Origin: a virus
Length of the DNA: 29,107 nucleotides
IMG/VR virus record: IMGVR_UViG_3300050121_000015
Span: 1-29,107 of that record
Reading direction: 5' to 3' (one strand)
Positions 949-26,843 of this stretch are shown piece by piece. Each line of letters opens with the position of its first letter. Positions within the stretch are counted from its first letter, which is position 1. The position numbers and the translations under genes were made by a program. Below the pieces are notes generated by a model that made no database searches, was not told where the DNA came from, and worked only from the letters and a program-made list of their open reading frames with translations.

Positions 949-1854
949 TTAGTAAAATTCAAACCACATAGCTACTGTCATTGTACCTACATTAGGGGCT
1001 AGTAAATACGTACTACCACTAGGAACTATAAAACTAGCATAGGCTATACCAGCAGATGAAGGAGATTCTGATGTATAGCCTATAGCTACCCCATCTATAA
1101 CTATAGTACATATAGTTAAGGAAGTAGACATAGAACCAGTAAACTGTACATACATAGCTCTACCAGTAGAATTAGGGTAAGTAATATTGGCAAAACGACT
1201 GCTTGTAAAGTTATAATAACTTCCGGCACTGAATAAATCAGATGTCATTGCAACAGTACCATCTTTATCAGGCATAGTCCATGTTCTAGCTGCTGTCGTA
1301 GCATTAGTTAAAAAGTTAGTAAATGTGTTTGCAGCATTTCGTAGATTGAGTTTGAACAGAGTTAATCCGGGATACCCTCCAGTTGTATCTTTAGCAATTT
1401 GCCCAGTACCCCCTTGTGCTACAGACAACGGAGTGGTAAGGCCTCCCAAAGATGTAATATCAATATTTGCTCCAGCCTGTGCGCCACCTATTACTTGCCA
1501 ATTCGTTGTATCTGTAGAAGGGTCAGTTGTACCTGCACCAGCAGTCTTCCTACGGTAAGTTAGAAAGTTAATTGGTGAGAAGCGTGCATTACCTACTGCA
1601 TAGGTAGTACCACTTACCCAAACTGTTACTCCTGTTGCAGCTAAGGCACTAGCAGCACTAGCCGCGGCAGCCACTGCGTTGTTGTAACAATCTACAGCAT
1701 TATTGTATACATTGGTTCCCAGTGCTCCGAACTGTGCAACTGCAGCAATTAACCAAGTTACAAAGTTATCAACACGAGTAGAGAATGTTGATCTATCACT
1801 ACGATTAGGGGCAGTAGGTGATGCCGTTATTGTTGGAGGTGCTGTTTGTGCCAT
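949..1854 (-). CDS. Tail fibre / receptor-binding protein B (shared N-terminal anchor)
   Basis: The 301-residue product has a Pro/Thr-rich leader, then a conserved block (about residues 15-58, PNRSDRSTFS ... FVTWLIAAV ... NVYNNA) shared with the fibre protein at 4053-5102; this is probably the tail-attachment segment. A short Ala-rich helix follows (residues 58-72), then a chitin-binding-like strand region (VWVSGTTYAVGNARFSP, about 78-105) and a linker with TTPLSVAQGGTGQ, typical of fibre proteins. The C-terminal beta-rich domain (about 210-301) lacks the anchor's similarity and is the likely receptor-contact part. It lies between the tail glycosidase and the DUF4376-like gene. AAGGAT lies upstream of the start. 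Host receptor binding is inferred, not shown. Confidence 0.7.
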   Translation of the reverse strand: MAQTAPPTITASPTAPNRSDRSTFSTRVDNFVTWLIAAVAQFGALGTNVYNNAVDCYNNAVAAAASAASALAATGVTVWVSGTTYAVGNARFSPINFLTYRRKTAGAGTTDPSTDTTNWQVIGGAQAGANIDITSLGGLTTPLSVAQGGTGQIAKDTTGGYPGLTLFKLNLRNAANTFTNFLTNATTAARTWTMPDKDGTVAMTSDLFSAGSYYNFTSSRFANITYPNSTGRAMYVQFTGSMSTSLTICTIVIDGVAIGYTSESPSSAGIAYASFIVPSGSTYLLAPNVGTMTVAMWFEFY

Positions 1855-1890: not shown

Positions 1891-4056
1891 TTATACAGAA
1901 ATTGTTTCACCAGTAGCAAGATGAATGTATGCAGTGCCTCCCGTTGGAGATTCCCCATTAACTTGCACTATTGTTTTGCCTGCTACACTTGCAGCCCCAT
2001 CATGAACTGCTGTAATAGCTGATGTATTACCTACAATACCTCTAGTTGATGAGTCCCATGAATAGAAAAACGTCTTACTAAATCCAGCCGCTAGTCGTTG
2101 TAATATATTTTTATTAGCCAAATAGCCTATTTCTGCTGACGATAGAAAGGAAAAAGTACCAGTCAATGTAATCAGTGCTGGTGATGATAATGTAGCTGTA
2201 GTTCCAGAATTACCAGAAATATATCCAACAAGAGTTCCGCTTGCATCCATAAGTTTAAACCCAACCAGTGAGTTTGCTGTCTGAGTGGGCGCTACAGTTA
2301 CAGTATTACTACCTGCTGTAACTGTCACCGATGTTAAGTTAGCATTAAAAGCTACTCCAAATTCGGTAGTCCACTTTTCTAATGTATCTTTTCCTAAATA
2401 TGCTAAATACCTTCTCCACAAAAGTATCTGACTAAATATTAAATTATTAGATGCGTAAGTATGTGTAGCAAAAATATCTACCCAGTCCATAAGTGTTGTT
2501 CCAGTACCATTATTCCCACTGAATGAAAGGCCAACAGAAGAAGCTCGATACATAGAGTCTGTAACAGTAGTTTGATATAGTAGTGTACACACTCTATTAA
2601 TTCCGGCAGTACATGCCCTTGTGATTGTAAAGTTATGTGTAGTTGACGATATTACTATATCTCTAGTGCCAGCAGGTGTATTAAAGCTACCGGCATTAGA
2701 AAGAACAACCTGTGACCCTACAGATGCGTTATGTGTATTCTTATAAACAGTAATAGTTGTACCATCAGATGATACAGCAACGCCATTCGCCACTTTTGCA
2801 GGTACTCCAGACATATCAGGAAATGGAGGGCTTAAAACCTTAGCATTAGGATTGACTGACTTGATAGCCAATGATGCAAGCCGTACCATCTCAGATAACT
2901 TTTCAGGCATACCACTAAAATCGCCACTACTAGGAGAATGGAATGTTGCAGCTACTGTTCCAGATGCAGTGGCATTCATAGTCAATGTTACTGTTACTCT
3001 ATCTGAAGCAACGCTAGTAACCTGCGCACCTATTGGGATACCTGCGCCCATTACGCCGCCATTTGTGGTAACAAAGTAATATGACGAATGAAAAGAGATA
3101 GCTCCTGAAACTGTTCCGGTATTATTGGCAGATAAAGTTATTACATTACCATTTTTAGAGTTAACAGTTACGTTAGCTGCTATTCCTGTTCCTATTACAG
3201 CCCCGCCAACTTCGACTAGCAGCGAAGTTCCGCTAGATAGGGTAATAGTATTTGCACCACTTGCACCTGTTGCCGATACATTCAACGTTTCAGCAAGAGT
3301 AACAATATTTGAGCCAGATGTTGTTGTTACTTTACTATTTACTGCGGTAAAGTCCGGCTCATTCCATACTTCATAATGGGTTATCAATGGATAACGAGTA
3401 GCATGTGCTATACAATAATCTACCCAGTATTGCATGTTTAACGGCTCTGCCCCATGCCCACGTCCGCCATAGTTATAACCAATCTCTAATGGTCGAGCAG
3501 ATGCAAATTTAGGAGTACCTAGCAATGTACAAAGTATCTGCCTTCCTTCACTCACCATTTGAGCATAAACTGCATCAGGGTTAGTCCAGCAATACACCCC
3601 AGGCGCAGGATTATGAGTATACCACTGACCCCATTGACCATCATGAGTTCTATACCAGGAGTAACCTAAAGCACTTGGGCTACTACCAACAGCACCAAGG
3701 CTTTCTGTTAATCCGGCTTTATATATCTCAATGGTTTTACCTGCAAAAGTAGTAACGTTTGGAGTATCAAGTGTAAGAACTGCACCAGCAATACTTAATA
3801 CTTTAGCACCAATGCCCGTACCTAAATCATTTTGAGTTACGATATTACATCCAGCAGTTATCAGCGCATCTGCGGTACTTAACATTATCGTATACTCTCC
3901 AATATTTCCAGCAGCTATCCGACCGTTAAGGTAGTTTCTTTGGTTGATAGGCCATGTATGTATATGGATTCCTAAACAATCAATAGGTACAACTACATTA
4001 CTACTGCTAAGGATTCCAACCTTTGCAGTGTCTACATTTTGAGAATACGTTATCAT
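1891..4056 (-). CDS. Tail-associated glycoside hydrolase (clan GH-A type, GH39/GH5-like) with inserted beta modules
   Basis: The 721-residue protein shows a TIM-barrel glycosidase signature. HYEVWNEPDF (residues 227-236) carries the acid/base Glu233 after Asn232. EKWTTEFG (560-567) supplies a candidate nucleophile Glu565, and ATHTYASNN (530-538) resembles a strand-end segment before it. Earlier barrel-like pieces are LGIHIHTWP (28-36), YSWYRTHDGQWGQWY (132-146) and GRQILCTLLGTPKF (171-184). Four stretches do not fit the barrel and look like small beta domains set into loops: about 50-113, 240-376 (two units), 423-498 and 574-640. The start overlaps the previous stop (ATGA), with a GAGG ribosome site upstream. 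A phage-borne glycosidase between two fibre genes suggests a capsule or exopolysaccharide depolymerase that clears a path to the cell. Family number and substrate cannot be decided by eye. Confidence 0.75.
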   Translation of the reverse strand: MITYSQNVDTAKVGILSSSNVVVPIDCLGIHIHTWPINQRNYLNGRIAAGNIGEYTIMLSTADALITAGCNIVTQNDLGTGIGAKVLSIAGAVLTLDTPNVTTFAGKTIEIYKAGLTESLGAVGSSPSALGYSWYRTHDGQWGQWYTHNPAPGVYCWTNPDAVYAQMVSEGRQILCTLLGTPKFASARPLEIGYNYGGRGHGAEPLNMQYWVDYCIAHATRYPLITHYEVWNEPDFTAVNSKVTTTSGSNIVTLAETLNVSATGASGANTITLSSGTSLLVEVGGAVIGTGIAANVTVNSKNGNVITLSANNTGTVSGAISFHSSYYFVTTNGGVMGAGIPIGAQVTSVASDRVTVTLTMNATASGTVAATFHSPSSGDFSGMPEKLSEMVRLASLAIKSVNPNAKVLSPPFPDMSGVPAKVANGVAVSSDGTTITVYKNTHNASVGSQVVLSNAGSFNTPAGTRDIVISSTTHNFTITRACTAGINRVCTLLYQTTVTDSMYRASSVGLSFSGNNGTGTTLMDWVDIFATHTYASNNLIFSQILLWRRYLAYLGKDTLEKWTTEFGVAFNANLTSVTVTAGSNTVTVAPTQTANSLVGFKLMDASGTLVGYISGNSGTTATLSSPALITLTGTFSFLSSAEIGYLANKNILQRLAAGFSKTFFYSWDSSTRGIVGNTSAITAVHDGAASVAGKTIVQVNGESPTGGTAYIHLATGETISV

Positions 4057-5102
4057 ACTATAACCTCTATCATAGTGTTGGCAATAAGGGCGTAATCATT
4101 ATAAAGTTGATTACCGAAATTTACAAAATGGGTGAAAGTATTATTAACTGTTGAGTCAATATTTTGACCGCTAGCGACAAATATACCGGATGCAGTTGAA
4201 CCAGATAGCATAAAGGTAGAGTCAGTTCCTGCCCCTAGTAATGTAATTACAGTAGTATAAGTTTTATATGTTGCACTTGTGTTAATTGAGCTTTCTGCCC
4301 AAAATACTGCATTTTGATTCACCGCTCCTTTAGTATTACCTGCTAATTGTAATACCCTTGCTGTAATCCCTGTTGGCAGTAGTATTGCCGTAGTAATCCT
4401 AAATGAAGAACCGACTTGTAGTGTATTTGCTGGGATAGTAACCCCATAAGATTGTATGGGAGTATATCCAGTTAACTGAGTTACTGCCTGCGAAGTAGTA
4501 ACTGTTGCACTAATCCGTGACAAACAAGTAAATGTTGTAGGGCTAGTTACAATAATATTATTATATATCATTGTATTACCAACATCAGCGTGTATAGCAG
4601 CAGTTGCAAATTTTAGAAACACATCTGTATTAGCGTTACTTATACCATATGACACTTCTGATAGTATATTGTGTGCTACTCCTCCAAAATCTACAGTAAC
4701 TAAATAACCTACCTGAGTGGCAGTTATACCTGCACCATTATATGAAGGAACAAGTAAAGGACATTTCGAATCTGCTGTCAATGCTCCTGATATTGCAGGA
4801 ACTTTAGGTTGATTAGGTGCAAATCCTAGTAGAAGCCCTGTATCTAAAAATCTTGCAGTTCCTATAAACTCTGAAGTTACATTAGAGATAGAATTAAAGA
4901 GAGTTACAAATTCTTTAGAAATAGTTGAAGTGGAAACCTCTAAAGCATTATTATATACATTAGCCGCTAGTGTGTCAAATTGTCCTACAGCAGAAATTAA
5001 CCAAGTTACAAAATCCGCCCCTCTATTGGAGAACGTAACCCTATCATCCCTGTTTGGTTCAATAGGAGCTGCAGGTATTGGTGTTGGCGGTATTATAGCC
5101 AT
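4053..5102 (-). CDS. Tail fibre / receptor-binding protein A (shared N-terminal anchor)
   Basis: The 349-residue protein has a Pro-rich leader (IPPTPIPAAP) followed by an anchor block (EPNRDDRVTFS ... FVTWLISAV ... NVYNNA, about residues 14-60). That block matches the fibre protein at 949-1854 at 29 of 46 positions in my hand alignment. The rest is beta-rich and unlike the other fibre. A central domain covers about 100-220. A C-terminal jelly-roll-like part (about 225-349, including GVTIPANTLQVGSSFRI) has a pattern common in phage spike and fibre tips. The start codon shares one base with the previous stop (TAATG) and the stop overlaps the glycosidase start (ATGA), so the three are translationally coupled. 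It is probably one of two fibres attached at the same or equivalent tail sites. Confidence 0.65.
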   Translation of the reverse strand: MAIIPPTPIPAAPIEPNRDDRVTFSNRGADFVTWLISAVGQFDTLAANVYNNALEVSTSTISKEFVTLFNSISNVTSEFIGTARFLDTGLLLGFAPNQPKVPAISGALTADSKCPLLVPSYNGAGITATQVGYLVTVDFGGVAHNILSEVSYGISNANTDVFLKFATAAIHADVGNTMIYNNIIVTSPTTFTCLSRISATVTTSQAVTQLTGYTPIQSYGVTIPANTLQVGSSFRITTAILLPTGITARVLQLAGNTKGAVNQNAVFWAESSINTSATYKTYTTVITLLGAGTDSTFMLSGSTASGIFVASGQNIDSTVNNTFTHFVNFGNQLYNDYALIANTMIEVIV

Positions 5103-6037
5103 TATATTAATCCTTGTACAGTTAAATCAAGTTGAGTTGTTGTAGCAGAAAGATAAGTTACGTCAGAAGAGCCTAATCCAAAAATAGTTAAAGCTTCAAA
5201 ATTAGCTATAGTATCTTCATAAATCCATACACATGGTACGTCTAATACTTCCTGCAAGATTCCTACAACAGTAGTTGCTTGTGAGGTGTCTAGTCTAGCA
5301 GAACAGGTCATGTTTGTAGTGGCTTTCCTCCGGACAATTGTAGTAGTTCCAAAAGAATCTGTATTAATATAGCTATAAGTTTTAGGAGTTACTTTCCCTC
5401 CATACATAGCACGAGCTATTTGTTGCAGATCTCCTACAACAGCTATACCGCAGCGAACTTCTACTCCAGTTGTGGCTGCAATAGTAATTGTTACTTCAGC
5501 TGCACTGTACTGTATAAAGGATGGAAGTAAAACGCTAGTCTGTTGGCTTAATCTGGAAAAGAAGTATTCCCAATAATCAGAAGGAAGTGCGCCACCAAGG
5601 GGTATAACTCCAGTATCATATACTATGGTACCTCCAGGAGCATCTTTAACTACAATCTGTACATTATCTCCTACTAAACCTCCTAAGTATAAAGAGTTGA
5701 AAAATCCAGGATTAAGTACTACAGTAAGGGTTCCAACACCTATTGATTGAGTATTAACTACTGCATCAAACATAGCCCATTTGTTTGTCGGGCCGGTATC
5801 TATCCAATTAATGATACCGGCTGGATCTGCTATCTGATTTGCATCTAATGTTGGGTCTTTATTTAGATTTCCTGCTACTGCACTTTGATAGATACGATGT
5901 GTAGTGGTACTAATTACTTTATCCCCAAGCGTATAAGTGGTTGCAGCATTATAGGCCGGGAAATCTGCTTCCGTAAGTGTACTACTGCCAAGAACAGCAT
6001 CTGTAGTTACTTTAGGAATCATTACTGATAAACTCAT
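5102..6037 (-). CDS. Tail-tip protein encoded directly after the tape measure
   Basis: The 311-residue protein begins with a leader that includes a carbohydrate-binding-module-like segment (TTYTLGDKVISTTTHRIYQS, residues 33-52). An INWIDTGPTNKWAMFD stretch follows, which I recognise from uncharacterised phage proteins found right behind the tape measure. The middle is beta-rich (about 100-210) and the C-terminal region is mixed. There is no catalytic motif. Its start overlaps the tape-measure stop by 4 bases (ATGA). By position it should be a distal-tail or hub component joining the tail tube to the fibres, perhaps with a sugar-binding role. I see no similarity to lambda M, L, K, I or J. The role is inferred from context. 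Confidence 0.6.
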   Translation of the reverse strand: MSLSVMIPKVTTDAVLGSSTLTEADFPAYNAATTYTLGDKVISTTTHRIYQSAVAGNLNKDPTLDANQIADPAGIINWIDTGPTNKWAMFDAVVNTQSIGVGTLTVVLNPGFFNSLYLGGLVGDNVQIVVKDAPGGTIVYDTGVIPLGGALPSDYWEYFFSRLSQQTSVLLPSFIQYSAAEVTITIAATTGVEVRCGIAVVGDLQQIARAMYGGKVTPKTYSYINTDSFGTTTIVRRKATTNMTCSARLDTSQATTVVGILQEVLDVPCVWIYEDTIANFEALTIFGLGSSDVTYLSATTTQLDLTVQGLI

Positions 6038-9000
6038 GCTACCACCTTAACTAACATAGGGCCTCCTGCTGTTGAATTATCTAAAATATCTGTAGTTTGT
6101 TTAGTAGTAGAAGCTATTTTATTCAAAGTTGTTTGCTGCCTTTCTACGGTACTGCGTAATTCTTTTATTTCTTTAATAAGTTCTGAGTTATCCAGTTTAA
6201 TAGTAGTACTGCTAGTTTTAGCCAGCATACTCATTAATTTTGCATTATCCGCTGCAGGTATAATACGTTCCCCTTTATGGATATTAGCAGTCATATCCTC
6301 TGGAACAAAGTTAGTACCTATTGCAAATCCAGGAACTCCTTGAGAATGTAACCATGCAGAAGAACTTGCAATATCAGCTAACATTCCAGAATCCAAACCT
6401 GTAGTTGAAATCCTTTGAGGTATAGTTGCAAAAGTTCTAGCAATCTCCGTTGTAAGATTAGATAGATTTATAACATTGTTTGACAATGGTACTACCCATG
6501 ATGCTAACTCTTCTGCTGTAGGTGCATGTCCTTGAACCTGCTGGAAAGAAGCAATAATAGCTTTCTCTGTATCTGTCTTACTAGTATTGTTAACAGCTTC
6601 TGCCAATAGCTGCATAGATGCTTGAATTAATACATCCTTGGCTGCCATAGCAACCCCAAGATTAGCCAAAGACTGGTTCAAGGTAAGTACAGCAGTTGTT
6701 GTTCCGTTTGCAGCATCTAACTGCTTCTGTGCTATAGATACTTGATCAGTAGCACTTGTAGCAAGTTGTGATATTATATTCCCTGTTTTAGCTTGATTGA
6801 AAGCATATTGAGCAAATGAAGTATATAACTGTTCACTAGGTTTTGCAATATCGGTAAGGGCTTTATCCATTCCAGTTACATTGTCTATACTACCTCCTGA
6901 CTGAGCCGTATTAAGTGTAGTCTGCAGTAAAGCAACAGCACTATCTCTTTCTTGTTGCAGGGAAATATTTGTATCTATTACTGTAGACGCCATTGCAGAT
7001 TTCAGTTGAGTGGCCAAAGCCTGCATAGTACTAATAGCAGTAGATACAGCAGTGACTGCATTAGTAACTGCAGTATTTGCATCTGTCAAAGAATAGATCA
7101 TTTGTTGACTAGACCGTAAAGAAGAATCCATTGCAGCAAGATCAAGTTTACGTTGCGCTGTAAGCGCTCCAAGCGTGTTACCCGACAGTTGCATAATCTG
7201 TACTTCCAGACCTCGTTTTTGCAGATCAAGTGCATTGGCATTGGCAAGCAGGCTATAGTAAGTATCTGCACTAGCACTAAGTTTGAGCAGCATAGAGTAT
7301 TGTGCTTGACCCGCCGCAGTAGTAATATCTATTGCATCTACCTGAGCACGATACCCTTCCCGAGTTGAAGCTAGATTAAGATTTACTGAGTTCAACTGTC
7401 CTGAAAGTTGCTTGAATGATTGCGCCTGTTTCTCTGAATCTGTATAGAATTTATCAAAATAGGAGGAGAATTGTTTCTGAAACTCTTGTAAACCTCCAGC
7501 AGCCTGCACCAACGCATCACTAATTGCAATTGCATTGTCTGCTAGCAGTTTACCAGAGGTTGCAAGAGCATCTTTAACTACTGCTACTTCTGAAACTATA
7601 CGTACTGCCGTCTCCAGCATACCTTCACCAAGTTTTTGATATTGTCCTATTATATCTCCAAAGACTGAAGTAGCCATAGTGTCAAGTGTTGCAGAAAGAA
7701 CTCCATTTAGTTTGGCCGCAGCATCTGTACCATTAAGTCCTTTCAAATCTACTGTAAGAGCTGGAATCACATAGTTCTTAACACGGTCGGATAATCCTGC
7801 GCCTAGGGTATCTGCAAGACCGAACATAGTCTGACCCATACTTTTGAATACAGAGTTCAGTGCTCCTTGAGTAGAAGCATCAAGAGCAGCGTATTGAGTT
7901 GAGGTGCTATACTTGTCAGAAGTGAACCAACCACCAGCAGTCTTTGTTTGAATATCTGCATATTGTTGTGCTTGAAGATTCCCGCCTCCCATTATATCTG
8001 CCATAGATGTATTGGAAGTAGAAATACCTTGTGCTGTTACTGTGCTAGTTTTCTTTCCTCCAAAAGCAGCTCCAAGTAACCAACTCATAATAGGGTCAAC
8101 CTTCCAACCCCCTACTGTAGTAAGTTTATTGAACCCACTTGCTATTCCCATAGCTATACTGTCGGCAGGTAAAGTTGCAGACTTTAGTCCGCCAGCTTGG
8201 AATAGCCTAGTAACTACATTAGTAATACCTATAGATAAATTACTTATTCCTTGATCAATACTTCTCAAAACAGGATAATTATCTGCTTGAATATCCTTCA
8301 TCAACTGGGCAATGTTGACTATGCTATTCGACTTAGTAGTAGAATCTCCTAGCACTGTACCTGTATCTACTGATGCTGTTGAAGTCTGTGCAGGTGCTGT
8401 ATGATTAGCAGAAGCTGCTGCATAACCAAGACCTCCCATAACCCCTAACATAGCGGCTACACCGGCAAAACCAAACCAACCGCTTTGACCGAACATTTTT
8501 GCAGCGCCTGCCGCAACATCTATAGCAATGTAGGCTAAAGTCTTTGCTGCTCGTATAGCTTCTAATGCCATTTGTTCAGCTGCTATTCCTGTTTCAATAG
8601 CTTGGAAAGTTTTAGCTTCTTTACTCTTGGTTCCAAATAGTTTAACCACGGCATTGGTAAGGGTGGAGTATGCATCTGCCCCAGTCTTACCCATACTTTC
8701 ATAATAAGCTATATCAGCACTGCGGGTTTGCTCAATATACTTTTTGTCTAATGCAGCTTTCTCATCCAAAGTAATTTTATGATTTTGCAGAATGTAAGCA
8801 TTCTCAGCATCTACTCTAGCTTTCTCAGCTGCTGCTAAATCTGTCTCATGAGTATTTTTGATAGCTACCAAACCAGTAGTATCATTCTTAGTAAGTATAT
8901 TGTTAGCAATGGCAGCACTTTGCATAGCTTGCTGTCTACCTGCTTCTTGTATAAGCATCAACTTATTCTTAGCATCTATTGCTCCTTTACCTTCAAGAGC

Positions 9001-12000
9001 AATTATTTTATTCAACTGTGCAATTTCTTTCATCTGCAGATCAAGATACACTTTCTTAGCACTAACTAAAAGTCCTTGAACTGCATTACCAGAAATCATA
9101 CCAGCCTGCAACAGAGTTTGAGTTTCCTGTACTTTATCACGGTACAATTGCTCTGCTGCAGCTCTTTGAGTAGAGATTGTATTCAAACCAAGGTTCAATA
9201 CTTCAGACTGCTTGATCAAACCCAGTTTTTCTTTTTCAGTTGTCATACCATTTATTGCAAGAACTTCTTCCTGCACACGGTATTTGTTATTAATTTCTGC
9301 AATATTGGCTTCATCCTTCATACCAGTCAAACGCATGTAGTCTTTATCTATAGTATTCTTCATAACCAATAGTTCTTGATTATTGATAAACAATAGCTTT
9401 TCTGCTTCGATAGTACGTTGCTTATCTGCCTCGTATGCTCTGGAAATAGCATCTGTCTGAGCATCAATCTGTGAAGTATCTTTGATTGAATTCATTACCT
9501 GCTTTTGAGAAACAATTCCAAGCTTACCTTGTACTTGATTGGAGTAATCTGTTCCTTTTCCGTTCTTGGCTCCTGCCACTCCTGCATTATAGGCAGCTAA
9601 GCCTTTAGTAAGATCTCCAGGAAAAGATTTAAGGCTAGTTGCAAGAATCTTAACTCCAGAATCAATACTGTAGGACACATCCTGTACTAATCGTTGCTGA
9701 TTAACTTCTGAATGTGCTGCAGAATTAACTTGCATAAGACCTGAATCTGTACTGCCATTTTTATTCTTATTGGTAGCAGTTAGTACCCCACTGCTTTCCT
9801 GCATAATCACAGCTTTGATTATATCTGAGGATACACCATACTTAGTTGCAGCCGCTTGAATATCTGTAGCATATTTTTGTAATGCTTCCATGAACTTTGG
9901 ATCTGCAGTACTACGATTCACTAATGCATCCGCTAGTGCAGGTTTACCCTGTACTGCATTTATCTCTTTGTTTGCACGAGTAAGTTCAACTGCAAGAATC
10001 TCTTTGGAGATACGTAGACGTTCAAGGTAGGCATCGTTGAAAGAGAGTTGACGTTCTTTAACTTTTGCATCTACTTCCTCCTGCATAGTCTTTAATTGAT
10101 CTAATGCAAGTTTAGCATCAGCTTCTGCAGTACGTATCATAGACTTCATAATATTTGCTGCATAACCGGCCGCTTTATCTATAGCAGCTTGTTGCTTATT
10201 TACTTCTTTATCTGATACAGTATCTTTACCAGCCGCGAAGTTTGCAGCATTTTCTGCTTCTAGTTTTGCTTGTTTGGTTAAATCATCTGTCATTATAGCA
10301 CGAGTATCTGCTTCATTACGAACAGCAGCATTTAATAAAGTTTGTATATGTAGTCTTTCTTTTGCATTTCCTGTACCTGTTTCAGGGTTTTTACTTACAA
10401 AAGGTAGTTTGCTCTCTGCAGTGATAGATTTATCTAACTCTTTTAACTGCTTTACATACGTATCCACATCAGCAACTGCCTGTTTTACACTAGCATTTTC
10501 CTCTATAGCAAGAGTTAACTTTAACTCTGGGGTAGTTGCAGCAAGTTTATCATCAAATGCTTTACGAGCTTTAAGTACTCGGTCTTCAGTATCTTTTGCT
10601 TCTGCTCCCATACCAGCTAAAGCAATGGTAGCTGCTACTATACCTGCCACAAGAACTGCAGGAGAGGATAAGAAAGCAAATGCTACTTCTAGCCCTCCTA
10701 CGGCTGTTGCTGCTAGTCCTACAGTTGTAATACTTGTGGTAACTTCAGCAATAACAGTACCTATACCAGCTATACCAGCCTGTACCCAACCTAAACCAGC
10801 AACAAAATTACCTAGTAATACAAAAGTAGCTCCTAAAGCAATATTTACTCCTGTAGTTAATACAGTACTTAGAGTTCCAGTAGCTGTAACAAGTTTAGTC
10901 ATACCCTCTGCCGCAGCACCTAAACCTTTTACAATTCCTAAAAGAGGTCCAGAAGATACATTGTAAATAGACTCTCCAAGAAGCTGGAAATTTGTTTTCA
11001 TATCCTGCACATTAGCATTTAATCCTTTTCTGGCTAATTCAAAAGCAGCTGCAAACCGTGTTGCATAAAAGTCTGTAAAGTTTAATATATTATCATGAGC
11101 TGCTTCTGTTCCAGCCTTCATAGATTTAACTACCAGCAACGAAGCTTGTTGCTGGGTAACCGCAGCACGTCCAGCAGCTACTTCTATTTTATTATAATTA
11201 TCTCTCCATGCAGCTACATAAGATGCAAAAGCACCTGGCAGTAAGTTACCTAACTGTTTAACCAGTTCTTCTGACTGAACACGCGTCTTGTTGAATATTT
11301 GAGATATTGCAAGGAAGGTAAGTTGTACTTTATCTGCAGAAAGATGTAACGCAGTTGAAACTGTATTAATATTGGTAAACATATGCCAAACATCTGCAAG
11401 AGATTCACCTGCAAGACTAGCAGATGCTTGAAAAGTTCGGAAGTTTTCTCTAACTGTAGCAATCTCAATGCCTGTACGATGAGCTTCATCTGTTAAGGCT
11501 TTATAAACGCTATCCATACCTCCTATACCGACGGTAGCTGAAAGAGAAGCAAGAGTAGCTTCCTTCTGAATACCTATAGCCGGTATAGCCCGTATAGAGT
11601 TAGAAACTGCATTAATTACCGCGTTCAAGACTCGGTAGATACCTATAAATTCTGCTGCACGGCCTATGATGCTAGTATGCTGAGCTGCATTAGCGGCAAG
11701 TGCTGCATTTTCCTGTGCAGTAGCTTGAGCAGCCGCAAGAGTAACTTGATTTGAAACAATCTGTGCTTCAGTCCGTTGCATTATTGCAGTACGAGAAGCG
11801 TTAGCAGCTCCTCTATTAGATATAACACCTGCTCTAAGATTATCTTCAATAGCCTGCAACTGACTAGAAGCATTACGGCGTATAGCTATTTCATCATTAG
11901 CTGCTTGAAGTTCTATAGTACGGATATGATTTATACCGTTAGACCGAATAGATACTTCCAATGCTATTCTACGATTCATCTCTGTTTGGAGTTGAGCAGT

Positions 12001-12648
12001 CTCTGCTCGATAGATATCTGCTGAAGTACTTCTAGCTTGTGTTCCAGCTTGTACTGTTTCGATACTTCTGCGAATAGCGGTTATCTGGCTAGCAGCAGTT
12101 CTTTCCAATGCTACTCTTTGAGAAGTAGCAGTATGAATGTTATTCAAGGTTCCTGAAGCAATTTGTTGTTCAATTGCAGCAATATCTGTTGCTAGTTTTT
12201 GCTGTATAGCTTTTTCATCAGCTGCTGCTTGTATTTGCAACGTCTTGATATCTGTAATACCGTTAATACGTATGGAGCGTTCAAGGGTTAATCTTTGTTG
12301 AAGGGCTGCATTACTAACAGTAGCTGAAGAATTAAAAGTATCTGCTCGTATTGCAGAAGTACTTGCAGTACCAGTATTTCCTATTGTAGCATCACCAGCT
12401 AATGCTAAATTATGTACTAAATCTCTTGCAGCTTGAGCAGCAGCAATCGTAGAGGCTGTAAGTTTAACTACATGTTCATTAGTAGTCTGTATACCATCCG
12501 CATCCATGATTTGCTTAGATATAGTGTTCAACTGTTTAACAGCTACGCCTGTACCTTGCAAAGCTTTCTCTATAGATTTAAGGGCTTCTGGGGTATCTCC
12601 TAAATCACTTTTAATCCTAATCGTTAAAGTCTTATCTGAATTACTCAC
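6034..12648 (-). CDS. Tape measure protein with transglycosylase (SLT) domain
   Basis: This 2204-residue protein sets tail length and is expected to pass into the cell during DNA entry. Translation starts at GTG (12648), supported by AAGGAG 8 bases upstream; the start lies inside the end of the T frame (8-base overlap). Layout: two diverged copies of a 60-residue coiled unit (119-178 and 227-286); a tape-measure N-terminal domain (about 340-500, with RENFRTFQASASLAGES); a hydrophobic stretch (about 566-682); long helical coiled coils; a lytic transglycosylase SLT domain around 925-1050 with MQESSG (catalytic Glu951), SGLMQVN and AYNAG; a second hydrophobic, Gly/Ala-rich stretch (about 1363-1416); and a typical C-terminal end (GFAIGTNFVPEDM ... 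IHKGERIIPA). The SLT domain probably cuts peptidoglycan at infection. At lambda-like spacing this length predicts a tail of about 0.3 micrometres (inference). Confidence 0.95.
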   Translation of the reverse strand: MSNSDKTLTIRIKSDLGDTPEALKSIEKALQGTGVAVKQLNTISKQIMDADGIQTTNEHVVKLTASTIAAAQAARDLVHNLALAGDATIGNTGTASTSAIRADTFNSSATVSNAALQQRLTLERSIRINGITDIKTLQIQAAADEKAIQQKLATDIAAIEQQIASGTLNNIHTATSQRVALERTAASQITAIRRSIETVQAGTQARSTSADIYRAETAQLQTEMNRRIALEVSIRSNGINHIRTIELQAANDEIAIRRNASSQLQAIEDNLRAGVISNRGAANASRTAIMQRTEAQIVSNQVTLAAAQATAQENAALAANAAQHTSIIGRAAEFIGIYRVLNAVINAVSNSIRAIPAIGIQKEATLASLSATVGIGGMDSVYKALTDEAHRTGIEIATVRENFRTFQASASLAGESLADVWHMFTNINTVSTALHLSADKVQLTFLAISQIFNKTRVQSEELVKQLGNLLPGAFASYVAAWRDNYNKIEVAAGRAAVTQQQASLLVVKSMKAGTEAAHDNILNFTDFYATRFAAAFELARKGLNANVQDMKTNFQLLGESIYNVSSGPLLGIVKGLGAAAEGMTKLVTATGTLSTVLTTGVNIALGATFVLLGNFVAGLGWVQAGIAGIGTVIAEVTTSITTVGLAATAVGGLEVAFAFLSSPAVLVAGIVAATIALAGMGAEAKDTEDRVLKARKAFDDKLAATTPELKLTLAIEENASVKQAVADVDTYVKQLKELDKSITAESKLPFVSKNPETGTGNAKERLHIQTLLNAAVRNEADTRAIMTDDLTKQAKLEAENAANFAAGKDTVSDKEVNKQQAAIDKAAGYAANIMKSMIRTAEADAKLALDQLKTMQEEVDAKVKERQLSFNDAYLERLRISKEILAVELTRANKEINAVQGKPALADALVNRSTADPKFMEALQKYATDIQAAATKYGVSSDIIKAVIMQESSGVLTATNKNKNGSTDSGLMQVNSAAHSEVNQQRLVQDVSYSIDSGVKILATSLKSFPGDLTKGLAAYNAGVAGAKNGKGTDYSNQVQGKLGIVSQKQVMNSIKDTSQIDAQTDAISRAYEADKQRTIEAEKLLFINNQELLVMKNTIDKDYMRLTGMKDEANIAEINNKYRVQEEVLAINGMTTEKEKLGLIKQSEVLNLGLNTISTQRAAAEQLYRDKVQETQTLLQAGMISGNAVQGLLVSAKKVYLDLQMKEIAQLNKIIALEGKGAIDAKNKLMLIQEAGRQQAMQSAAIANNILTKNDTTGLVAIKNTHETDLAAAEKARVDAENAYILQNHKITLDEKAALDKKYIEQTRSADIAYYESMGKTGADAYSTLTNAVVKLFGTKSKEAKTFQAIETGIAAEQMALEAIRAAKTLAYIAIDVAAGAAKMFGQSGWFGFAGVAAMLGVMGGLGYAAASANHTAPAQTSTASVDTGTVLGDSTTKSNSIVNIAQLMKDIQADNYPVLRSIDQGISNLSIGITNVVTRLFQAGGLKSATLPADSIAMGIASGFNKLTTVGGWKVDPIMSWLLGAAFGGKKTSTVTAQGISTSNTSMADIMGGGNLQAQQYADIQTKTAGGWFTSDKYSTSTQYAALDASTQGALNSVFKSMGQTMFGLADTLGAGLSDRVKNYVIPALTVDLKGLNGTDAAAKLNGVLSATLDTMATSVFGDIIGQYQKLGEGMLETAVRIVSEVAVVKDALATSGKLLADNAIAISDALVQAAGGLQEFQKQFSSYFDKFYTDSEKQAQSFKQLSGQLNSVNLNLASTREGYRAQVDAIDITTAAGQAQYSMLLKLSASADTYYSLLANANALDLQKRGLEVQIMQLSGNTLGALTAQRKLDLAAMDSSLRSSQQMIYSLTDANTAVTNAVTAVSTAISTMQALATQLKSAMASTVIDTNISLQQERDSAVALLQTTLNTAQSGGSIDNVTGMDKALTDIAKPSEQLYTSFAQYAFNQAKTGNIISQLATSATDQVSIAQKQLDAANGTTTAVLTLNQSLANLGVAMAAKDVLIQASMQLLAEAVNNTSKTDTEKAIIASFQQVQGHAPTAEELASWVVPLSNNVINLSNLTTEIARTFATIPQRISTTGLDSGMLADIASSSAWLHSQGVPGFAIGTNFVPEDMTANIHKGERIIPAADNAKLMSMLAKTSSTTIKLDNSELIKEIKELRSTVERQQTTLNKIASTTKQTTDILDNSTAGGPMLVKVVA

Positions 12649-13564: not shown

Positions 13565-14851
13565 TTAGTAAAACTTAATAGTAGTTGTGGAAATGTTACG
13601 CATGTTTAAATCAAGAGCGGTATTGGTAGCAATCTTACTTTGAGTAACTTTAGCCAGTTTCACCTTATTCATAGACACTTCAATCTGCTTGCCAACAGTT
13701 GGCGCAACAATCTTATCAGCGTAGTCTATAGTTAGTAGGTAATCAGTACCTAACTTGCTATAAGGTTCTAAAGCAGCCGCAGCAGAATCTTCCAAGATAG
13801 ATACGGTTACATCTGTAGGATCTGCACGTTTACTCCAACCATCTCCACAAGTAAGAAGGTAACGAGTGTAGCTCCATCCTGACATGTTTACCATATTTAT
13901 CTTTTGGAAGCAGAAATTACTTACTCCTGTGATAGCAGGTACTGCGCCAGACGTATAGGCATCCATTTCAGTAAGGATAGTAGTGCTGCTTTTGATAGCC
14001 GGTGACACATCAAACTTCATATTACGGAAGTTTGGCACCAAAGTCAACTTTTGAGCAATAGTGGATAAGTTACCCAACATATTGAACTTCAGTTTAGGTT
14101 TAGAACCTACGACCATATCCAAGTCCATACCACCACGAACATTATGCAGAACGTAAGCTTTTTGCGTAACACCTACTGCCAAATCAGGAGATGATCTACG
14201 AACGTCAACGGTAAGATAGGCATTTGAAGCAATAGAATTGGTAATAGAGTAGTAACCAACTCCAAGAATCAAAGCCATACCGCAAGATTGATACCAGTCT
14301 GCCAAAGGAATTTCAGACTCTACCGGAGAAGAACCTGCCATAGTACCACGAGTAGGCATACGAGCTTCAAAATCGAATTTAGCGAACAAATCGGTAATGT
14401 CTGTAGTTTCATCTCTGTCCAATTCGTCGCCAACATACTGCATAACATCTGTAGTAGTTTCAACAGAAAAGTTCAAGTTCAATACTGCAATGGCGTTCTT
14501 CGGGCCAAGACCTGTTTGAAATGCAGTACCAGTAACAGGAGCACTAATAGCCATAACACCTGATGCTTGAGCTACAGCAACTGCAGGAACAACGGCATCC
14601 AACGTAAGAGCTGTATCAGATGCAATAGCAATTACCTGACCGATGATTTTCAAACCAGTAGCATCGAACAAGTAACTATTAAGAGCTACCTGAGAGAGGA
14701 ATGCAGTACCTACACCAGGAACCGCAGCAGAACCTGAAGTAGTAGTGATAGTACCGACGGGCGCAGTATTTTCAACAGGTACATTTTCTGCAATCTGTTG
14801 GCAGCCAAATAATGCAATGGCCTTTTCGTCAAACTTTGCTAATTGAGCCAT
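13565..14851 (-). CDS. Major tail (tube) protein, gpV-like
   Basis: The 428-residue protein occupies the lambda V position, before the G/GT chaperones and tape measure. It is longer than lambda gpV (246 residues). Part of the extra length is a small beta module at residues 32-105 (VGTITTTSGSAAVPGVGTAF ... IASDTALTLDA), a repeat type common in phage surface proteins. The remaining beta-rich sequence (for example DVMQYVGDELDRDETT and VLHNVRGGMDLDMVVGSKPK) fits a tube subunit. The ATG is 2 bases after the upstream stop, and GGAG lies across that stop, so translation is coupled. An intrinsic terminator follows the gene, consistent with very high expression. The inserted module probably projects from the tube surface; this is inference. 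Confidence 0.85.
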   Translation of the reverse strand: MAQLAKFDEKAIALFGCQQIAENVPVENTAPVGTITTTSGSAAVPGVGTAFLSQVALNSYLFDATGLKIIGQVIAIASDTALTLDAVVPAVAVAQASGVMAISAPVTGTAFQTGLGPKNAIAVLNLNFSVETTTDVMQYVGDELDRDETTDITDLFAKFDFEARMPTRGTMAGSSPVESEIPLADWYQSCGMALILGVGYYSITNSIASNAYLTVDVRRSSPDLAVGVTQKAYVLHNVRGGMDLDMVVGSKPKLKFNMLGNLSTIAQKLTLVPNFRNMKFDVSPAIKSSTTILTEMDAYTSGAVPAITGVSNFCFQKINMVNMSGWSYTRYLLTCGDGWSKRADPTDVTVSILEDSAAAALEPYSKLGTDYLLTIDYADKIVAPTVGKQIEVSMNKVKLAKVTQSKIATNTALDLNMRNISTTTIKFY

Positions 14852-25049: not shown

Positions 25050-26843
25050 ATGTCTTTTGATATATCAAAATATATCTACCCTGATACTAATCAAGGTAGG
25101 CAGCCACAACAAATAACACCTATAGATTGGGATAACCCTTTAACTAAGGGTTTAGTAGGTTCATATACTCCAATTGATAATGGTATCACTGTTGGAGGGG
25201 TAAGCAGTATTGTAGGAAACATTGTTGGAGATATAGGTAACCAAGGACAGGCATGGAAAGGGACATACCAAGCTAGCAATAACTACATCTTAATACCAAA
25301 AACCGACGCATTTGCTTACACAAATCAAGTAACCTTTGAAGCATTAATAAAAGTTAATGCTTTTCAAACAGCTATTTTTCCGTATATATCTGGAATTATT
25401 GGACAATACCAATCTAATACTACGGGTAGCCCCGATTATTACGGCCCATTTCTTAGATTTAATAATACTGCGGCACTAGGTGATGCAGCTAGACTTGTAT
25501 TTGGAGTTATGCAGGGTGGGGCTGGTTCTGGTGTATATGCAATAAATCCAACGGATTTGGTAGTTAATACCTTATACCATTTATTAGGTACATACGACGG
25601 CTCAGCAGTTAAGTTATATGTGAATGGTGTTCTAGTTGCCAGTACGGTATATTCAGGGGCAATAGATAATGACCCAAATACTTTTATATCTTTACTAGCT
25701 GATTATACTGCATCTACTGAGTCATATTTTCATAATCGCTGTTTAAATGGCGATATATTCTTAGCTCGCATATACAATACTGGAAAGACAGATGCAGAAG
25801 CAAAAGCCTTAGCAGATAATCCTTGGGGAATATATAAAACTAGAAGTTTATGGGTAGGGTTATCAGGCAGTACCATAAACCTTATCATTGCAAATCTAAC
25901 TCAAAGCAGTTCCTTAGGAACTCCTGCATTAGTACAGCAAAATATTCTTAGTATTGCAAATGCTTCTCAATCTTCTTCCTTGCAGAATTTAAGTTTAGTA
26001 CAAGCATCTACTTTAGTGGTAAACAATATACTTTCTGGACAATCTTTAGAAGTTTTAGTCTTAATTCAGCAGAATACTTTAGTAATAAATGGAATTACTG
26101 AAGCTAGTTTAGTAGTTAATTTAACCTTAGTTCAGCAGAATTTATTGACTATTGCAGGTATTTTAAGTTCAGATACTCTTGACACTTTAATACTTGTTCA
26201 GCAGAACATACTAGCTATTAATTCGCTCCTAGAAAGTAATAGCATAGGTACTTTAACGCTTGTACAACAGAATCTGTTAGTTCTTAACAATTTATTAAAC
26301 TCTTCAGTTTTAGATAATGTAGTACTAACTGGTCAAGGTTCTTTAGGAGTTAGTTCTTTAACTGCTGCTAGTTCCTTAGGATTGATTGCATTAGTGCAGG
26401 CTAACTTATTGGTTATACAAAACAATCTGCAGAGCAGTACTCTTGCCATACTTGACTTGGTTCAGCATAATGTTCTTACCGTAGGAAGTCTTCTAGCTTC
26501 TCAGACTCTTAATTCAATACTGCTATCTTTGCAAACAGTATTGCAGATAAGTAATATAGGACAGACAGCTGCATTAAGTAGTCTTGTTTTACTACAAAAC
26601 AATATTCTAACTATTCTAGGAATTACTGAAGCAACTTCTCTGATTAATTTGTCATTGACTCAGCAGAACTTACTGACTATAAACAATATTAGTTCGTCCG
26701 AACTGCTTGAAAACTTACATCTAATCTCTGGTATTATTGATCTAATACTAGAAGGTAAGATAATATATGTAGTTGAATCTAACTCGTTCATCTATGTAAC
26801 TGAAGAAAACCGTTCTCCTACCACCTTCATCCTTCAATCTTAA
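25050..26843 (+). CDS. LamG/concanavalin-like protein with thirteen 22-residue repeats
   Basis: In this 597-residue protein, residues about 50-245 form a concanavalin/LamG-type domain, marked by YHLLGTYDGSAVKLYVNGVL and a closing ARIYNTGKTDAEAKALADNP. From residue 276 to 561 there are thirteen consecutive 22-residue units of consensus xLxI-x8-SLxxLxLVQQN. They would form a regular coil or solenoid, or a trimeric rod. A 36-residue tail follows (LEGKIIYVV ... FILQS), strand-rich and perhaps a trimer cap. No catalytic residues stand out. Similar LamG proteins with LTQ/LVQ repeats are known to me as uncharacterised phage fibre-like proteins. It is likely an extended sugar-binding virion protein; attachment to the particle is inferred. 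Confidence 0.75.
   Translation: MSFDISKYIYPDTNQGRQPQQITPIDWDNPLTKGLVGSYTPIDNGITVGGVSSIVGNIVGDIGNQGQAWKGTYQASNNYILIPKTDAFAYTNQVTFEALIKVNAFQTAIFPYISGIIGQYQSNTTGSPDYYGPFLRFNNTAALGDAARLVFGVMQGGAGSGVYAINPTDLVVNTLYHLLGTYDGSAVKLYVNGVLVASTVYSGAIDNDPNTFISLLADYTASTESYFHNRCLNGDIFLARIYNTGKTDAEAKALADNPWGIYKTRSLWVGLSGSTINLIIANLTQSSSLGTPALVQQNILSIANASQSSSLQNLSLVQASTLVVNNILSGQSLEVLVLIQQNTLVINGITEASLVVNLTLVQQNLLTIAGILSSDTLDTLILVQQNILAINSLLESNSIGTLTLVQQNLLVLNNLLNSSVLDNVVLTGQGSLGVSSLTAASSLGLIALVQANLLVIQNNLQSSTLAILDLVQHNVLTVGSLLASQTLNSILLSLQTVLQISNIGQTAALSSLVLLQNNILTILGITEATSLINLSLTQQNLLTINNISSSELLENLHLISGIIDLILEGKIIYVVESNSFIYVTEENRSPTTFILQS
25875..26732 (+). repeat. Thirteen tandem 66-base repeats (22 codons) inside the LamG gene
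   Basis: The region encodes 13 units in perfect 22-residue register without indels (for example NILSIANASQSSSLQNLSL, STLVVNNILSGQSLEVLVL, NLLTIAGILSSDTLDTLIL). Units are conserved mainly at L, I, V, Q and N positions and have drifted at the DNA level, so the array is old or under structural constraint rather than a recent expansion. Confidence 0.85.

Follow-up and report, generated by a model that had tools for sequence, protein, structure and literature searches.

The most likely product of the gene at positions 1891 to 4056 of the window (the whole stretch of 29,107 nucleotides of viral DNA analyzed here) is a GH39-like (PslG-like) endoglycosidase of clan GH-A with a retaining mechanism, which would serve the phage as a tail-associated depolymerase of exopolysaccharide or capsule and has been enlarged by virion-type modules. 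We place the probability of this reading at about 0.7. Tail tube and sheath proteins with inserted beta domains are already known; the arrangement here, with such modules, one of them apparently nested, at four catalytic-face loops of an enzyme barrel, had no counterpart in the phage records and relatives searched. On the source contig (29 kb, IMG/VR virus record IMGVR_UViG_3300050121_000015), genes for a terminase, a portal-like protein, a protease, tail proteins, and an endolysin are recognized. The terminase was confirmed by tblastn, and several of the other gene calls were read from sequence only. The glycosidase gene is one open frame of 721 amino acids with no internal stops:

1891..4056, minus strand: phage GH39-like glycosidase; core at residues about 1–37, 121–238, 379–420, 499–571, and 640–721

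Homology of the insert-free core

The full 721-aa protein has no PHROG match, no NCBIfam match, and no Pfam match above cut-off; because of the entry of modules, enzymes of this kind escape standard family searches. With the inserts removed, the core (~370 aa) aligns end to end with uninterrupted phage homologues. When a profile was built from 12 uninterrupted relatives, with the window protein excluded, it matched the insert-free form over a single domain (167 bits, E 2e-48) and the whole protein in four colinear pieces (132.6 bits). The tblastn match to the “xylanase” of phage Cr30 likewise extended from 108 aa (9e-8) with the full protein to 270 aa (9e-16) with the insert-free form of 373 aa. 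This Caulobacter phage protein, annotated as a beta-1,4 xylanase (AGS80957, 394 aa), resembles the window protein in its YELWNE and WSTEF segments and differs from it in having no inserts and a longer C-terminal part.

The original prediction had proposed a profile search with the inserts removed, and its outcome was mixed: the insert-free core reached GH39 structures at 1e-4 and PslG at 0.011, but its score against Pfam GH39 (PF01229) was sub-threshold, at 17.7 bits versus a gathering cut-off of 26, and for this reason the protein is named GH39-like rather than filed as GH39. The whole protein gave no match to Pfam GH39.

A profile search for relatives returned 32 viral and 80 genomic loci. 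The closest, from IMG/VR (L068–L083), are uninterrupted phage proteins of ~360 aa with about 30% identity, whose domain termini coincide with those of the window protein; they differ in having no inserts and in having an upstream partner gene of another type. Exact-pattern searches of viral and genome contigs found no close relatives of the whole protein, and no glycosidase relatives were found at 63 loci from phages sharing the gene at 5102–6037.

No second interrupted homologue was found in the searches for relatives, so that the interrupted form is documented in a single virus record, as might be expected if the interruptions were an assembly or annotation artefact in a chimeric contig. That explanation is highly improbable, given that one open frame spans all junctions, that GC content is equal in core (0.403) and inserts (0.402), and that the five core segments occur in the correct order.

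Barrel fold and catalytic residues

AlphaFold2 with an alignment of 45 sequences confidently predicted a (beta/alpha)8 core (pTM 0.67; pLDDT 75–97 over most of the core), which is the barrel that had been anticipated from the sequence. The modelled strands are beta1 28–31, beta2 134–136, beta3 173–179, beta4 227–230, beta5 406–408, beta6 528–535, beta7 560–568, and beta8 659–665, and the modelled helices include alpha4 384–401, alpha7 640–656, and alpha8 678–691. The start of alpha4 at 384 agrees well with the earlier estimate that the helix after the catalytic strand resumes near residue 380. A single-sequence model (pLDDT 30) was discarded, and a second model used family rows only because module fragments had spoiled the family alignment. 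The stretch at about 433–442, modelled as alpha5 and partly misaligned, is probably an alignment artefact.

The best PDB matches of the model are PslG and GH39 enzymes (Foldseek 5e-7), and GH39 entries, including PslG and XynB1, lead the structure-match lists. VIA-align superimposes the model on PslG with Z 26 and an rmsd of about 3.3 over ~320 residues. VIA Z scores to GH39 and GH1 enzymes range from 22 to 26, with GH1 some Z units lower, as is expected within the clan.

The catalytic segments VWNEPDF, with Glu233, and WTTEFG, with Glu565, lie where the original prediction had placed them:

3358..3360, minus strand: Glu233 codon (YEVWNEP, end of beta4), predicted acid/base; invariant in 45 sequences
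2461..2463, minus strand: His532 codon, beta6 (THTY); invariant in 45 sequences
2362..2364, minus strand: Glu565 codon, predicted nucleophile on beta7 (WTTEFG); nearly invariant in 45 sequences

Across the alignment with 44 homologues, no variation is seen at W231, N232, E233, or H532, and Y228, E229, P234, Y534, W562, and E565 are nearly invariant. The WNEP motif of Glu233 aligns with WNEP in PslG and in GH39 xylosidases, and His532 is presumably the active-site residue typical of clan GH-A. In the model, Glu233 on beta4 and Glu565 on beta7 occupy the canonical clan GH-A catalytic places. GH39 enzymes are retaining. The acid/base and the nucleophile of PslG are Glu165 and Glu276, respectively (PMC11912335).

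We infer catalysis from this conservation. By what is known of the GH39 family, the enzyme would cut a beta-linked exopolysaccharide through a double-displacement mechanism, with Glu233 as the putative acid/base and Glu565 as the putative nucleophile. An insert only 6 residues past the acid/base could conceivably disturb substrate binding, and the barrel might then be catalytically dead, or a binding or structural domain with its cleft blocked by the inserts. We consider this distinctly unlikely, since the protein keeps both glutamates and His532 as well as Trp562 and the WNEP motif, and the relatives vary in length at the same place.

Four inserts in catalytic-face loops

Comparison with the uninterrupted homologues delimits four inserts, given here with the length of each affected loop and its range in 44 relatives:

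3697..3945, minus strand: insert 1 (residues about 38–120), beta1 loop; 103 residues vs 13–28
2923..3342, minus strand: insert 2 (about 239–378), beta4 loop, from the sixth residue after Glu233; 150 residues vs 8–25
2563..2796, minus strand: insert 3 (about 421–498), beta5 loop, beta-rich; 116 residues vs 21–37
2140..2343, minus strand: insert 4 (about 572–639), beta7 loop, after the nucleophile segment; 75 residues vs 8–26

The remaining loops are inside the length range of the relatives or at most 2 residues off, and none of the 44 aligned relatives has comparable inserts. The boundaries are close to those originally read by eye (50–113, ~238–380, 423–498, and 574–640), as are the placements of one insert soon after Glu233 and of the last just after the nucleophile segment. 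Since all four inserts lie in beta-to-alpha loops, they are on the catalytic (C-terminal) face of the barrel, and loop lengths together with the model uphold the earlier picture of several small beta modules on that face, in loops 1, 4, 5, and 7. The further claim that most active-site loops carry inserts was too broad; the loops are indeed catalytic-face loops, but only four of the eight are affected.

The position of the inserts invites the view, taken in the original prediction, that they wall the cleft as a functional collar that binds polymer or gates access, and that exchange of modules would retune substrate or host range. In its favor, all four inserts are in catalytic-face loops and two directly follow the catalytic strands beta4 and beta7. 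Loop tolerance, however, is sufficient to explain their position: with the terminal loops excluded, the core has ~137 loop residues in beta-to-alpha and 29 in alpha-to-beta connections, and from loop lengths alone all four inserts would fall on the catalytic face by chance in about 46% of cases. The beta1, beta4, beta5, and beta7 loops are among the more length-variable ones in the relatives, and the insert sites are places where the fold tolerates a change in length. The composition of the inserts also speaks against a collar. Trp is absent from them, Tyr is scarce, and other aromatic residues are sparse as well, unlike in typical carbohydrate-binding modules; this argues against classical modules of that kind and for structural ornaments, with binding still possible. 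In addition, the module types belong elsewhere to structural virion proteins, and in the AlphaFold2 model the inserts are mostly at pLDDT <50, too low to orient them. A collar is on balance unlikely. More speculative still, and improbable on our estimate, is a design like that of antibody loops, in which the active-site loops of the barrel are ports for exchangeable virion modules and swaps retune which polysaccharide is bound and cut. If this were true, a phage could change its polysaccharide specificity by a module swap, with no need for a new enzyme.

Module identity of the inserts

Insert 2 is the insert whose module identity the computation supports. It is made up, by sequence comparison, of two copies of a phage virion module of the GTGIPAGATV type (GxGIPxGATV), here called X and Y:

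3283..3342, minus strand: first part of module X (residues about 239–258); 8.1 bits, module-profile positions 1–13
3076..3282, minus strand: module Y (about 259–327), intact, apparently nested in X; 42.1 bits
2929..3075, minus strand: second part of module X (about 328–376); 29.1 bits alone

The module profile was built from 65 external phage modules and included no sequence from the window. Joining the two parts of X raised the score from 29.1 to 35.7–39.7 bits over the full module, and X so joined aligns with Y at z 8.4. Module X is thus probably split by Y, that is, one module is nested within another. Nesting is favored rather than proved by these scores, because the join scan would be satisfied equally by a tandem pair of homologous modules with one strand in common. 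When X without Y was used as the query, a database search returned the tail tubular protein A of Xanthomonas phage PBR31 (E 0.2) and the GTA_TIM protein of Rhodobacter phage RcZahn (E 3); within a local set the corresponding values were 0.0014 and 0.013.

The other inserts cannot be assigned securely to any module family. Insert 1 aligns with Y at z 4.9 and scores 7.4 bits against the module profile, and insert 4, with five predicted strands at pLDDT about 45–70, aligns with Y at z 3.8 and scores 6.5 bits; both profile scores are weak. These two inserts are possibly distant relatives of the virion module. Insert 3 scored 3.2 bits against the profile, which is not significant, and shows no sequence similarity to the other inserts (z near or below 1); it matches phrog_38468 and phrog_14643 at E 0.04–0.05. 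No convincing named phage match was found for inserts 1, 3, and 4 in the searches.

The module in other virion proteins

Viral contigs scanned for the module yielded 80 loci, and iteration extended this to 93 domains in 84 proteins. A tail tube protein of the Phage_tube_2 type contains the module, as do proteins in which DUF3383 or tail-fibre domains occur. In the two phages that also match module X, it is found at the following places:

L181, 351–4751: RcZahn GTA_TIM protein, module between Pfam Phage-tail_3 and Rcc01698_C
L180, 1261–2214: PBR31, module within the protein that carries the annotation tail tubular protein A

The GTGIPAGATV-type module is promiscuous: its carriers also include tail-tube, sheath-like, tail-tubular, and fibre proteins. 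In the window itself, a major-tail-protein-like gene at 13565–14851 (minus strand) contains, near residues 31–86 (about 14594–14761), a small beta module that has PHROG tail-protein matches and aligns with joined X at z 4.1.

The presence of related modules in many unrelated virion proteins, together with the natural variability of the affected loops and the fact that all aligned relatives do without inserts, is what would be expected if mobile modules had landed in permissive loops and persisted as near-neutral ornaments with no specific role. We regard this as somewhat unlikely: four insert sites, with five or more modules, have stayed in frame around a conserved catalytic core, and 359 residues are a cost in a small virion. 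In the preferred reading, small beta modules from a mobile pool of virion modules would have entered the beta1, beta4, beta5, and beta7 loops, and the inserts, one apparently a module within a module, would nearly double the size of the enzyme. The modules would then most likely be rigid ornaments that space or stabilize the enzyme and contact either adjacent proteins of the virion or the polymer as it enters the cleft.

Relation to known systems

The closest characterized counterpart is PslG of P. aeruginosa (CAZy GH39; PDB 4zn2, 5bx9, 9g17), which shares with the phage protein the barrel and the WNEP acid/base segment. Both are of exopolysaccharide-type, the phage enzyme being so classed by prediction. 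In contrast to the phage enzyme, with which it has ~15–17% identity, PslG has no inserted modules and is encoded in the chromosomal Psl operon.

Precedents for inserted beta domains exist in conserved virion cores, for example domain 2 of the YSD1 tail tube protein (PMC8718954) and the additional beta domains of type 2 and 3 sheath proteins (PMC9230969), and the shuffling of receptor-binding proteins is also known (PMC10684548). In the YSD1 and sheath cases one or a few domains are carried by a structural core, whereas in the window protein four loops of an enzyme barrel are occupied. Elsewhere the GxGIPxGATV module is found in structural-type proteins, and none of those examined is a glycosidase barrel carrying it in catalytic-face loops. 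A tblastn search of 50,697 phage records with the full and insert-free proteins turned up no other enzyme barrel with such modules, an apparently nested one among them, at four catalytic-face loops, and the relatives examined include none.

The protein provides a clear example from nature in which several mobile virion modules have entered one enzyme fold, at four separate catalytic-face loops and with the catalytic core intact, and it indicates that enzymes, too, can acquire modules known from the structural proteins of tails. The system offers a direct test of the effect of loop modules on depolymerase specificity.

Gene neighborhood and tail association

The glycosidase gene is located in a tail-gene neighborhood and is flanked by two genes on the same strand:

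4053..5102, minus strand: upstream gene, with a 4-nt overlap with the glycosidase start
949..1854, minus strand: downstream fibre-like protein, with PHROG tail and tail-fibre matches

These flanking genes have their N-terminal ~60 aa in common (phmmer 3.2e-15), and the similarity suggests a tail-fibre-type anchor. The glycosidase genes of the relatives adjoin virion genes, behind a conserved partner gene. From the anchor-like segment shared by the flanking genes and the location of the relatives beside virion genes, we infer attachment to the virion; a tail-associated exopolysaccharide or capsule depolymerase would be the most likely role of the enzyme in the phage. The glycosidase itself has no recognizable tail-anchor domain and could for that reason be soluble.

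In nine of the relatives' loci (L068, L070–L072, L074, L076, L077, L081, and L082), the upstream partner gene has a conserved C-terminal part of ~150 aa and variable N-termini, and it often adjoins or overlaps the glycosidase gene. Partner and glycosidase could possibly form a split tailspike, composed of an anchor and an enzyme. No homology was detectable between this partner gene and the upstream gene of the window.

Two further genes of the window have recognizable features. The gene at 6034–12648 (minus strand) encodes a putative tape measure protein of 2204 aa, in which the stretch ATKYGVSSDIIKAVIMQESSG resembles a lytic transglycosylase motif, as judged from its residues. The product of the gene at 25050–26843 (plus strand) has a laminin-G-like domain (Pfam 3.7e-14) and, after it, many repeats of about 20–25 residues of the type xLVQQNILxINxLxxS.
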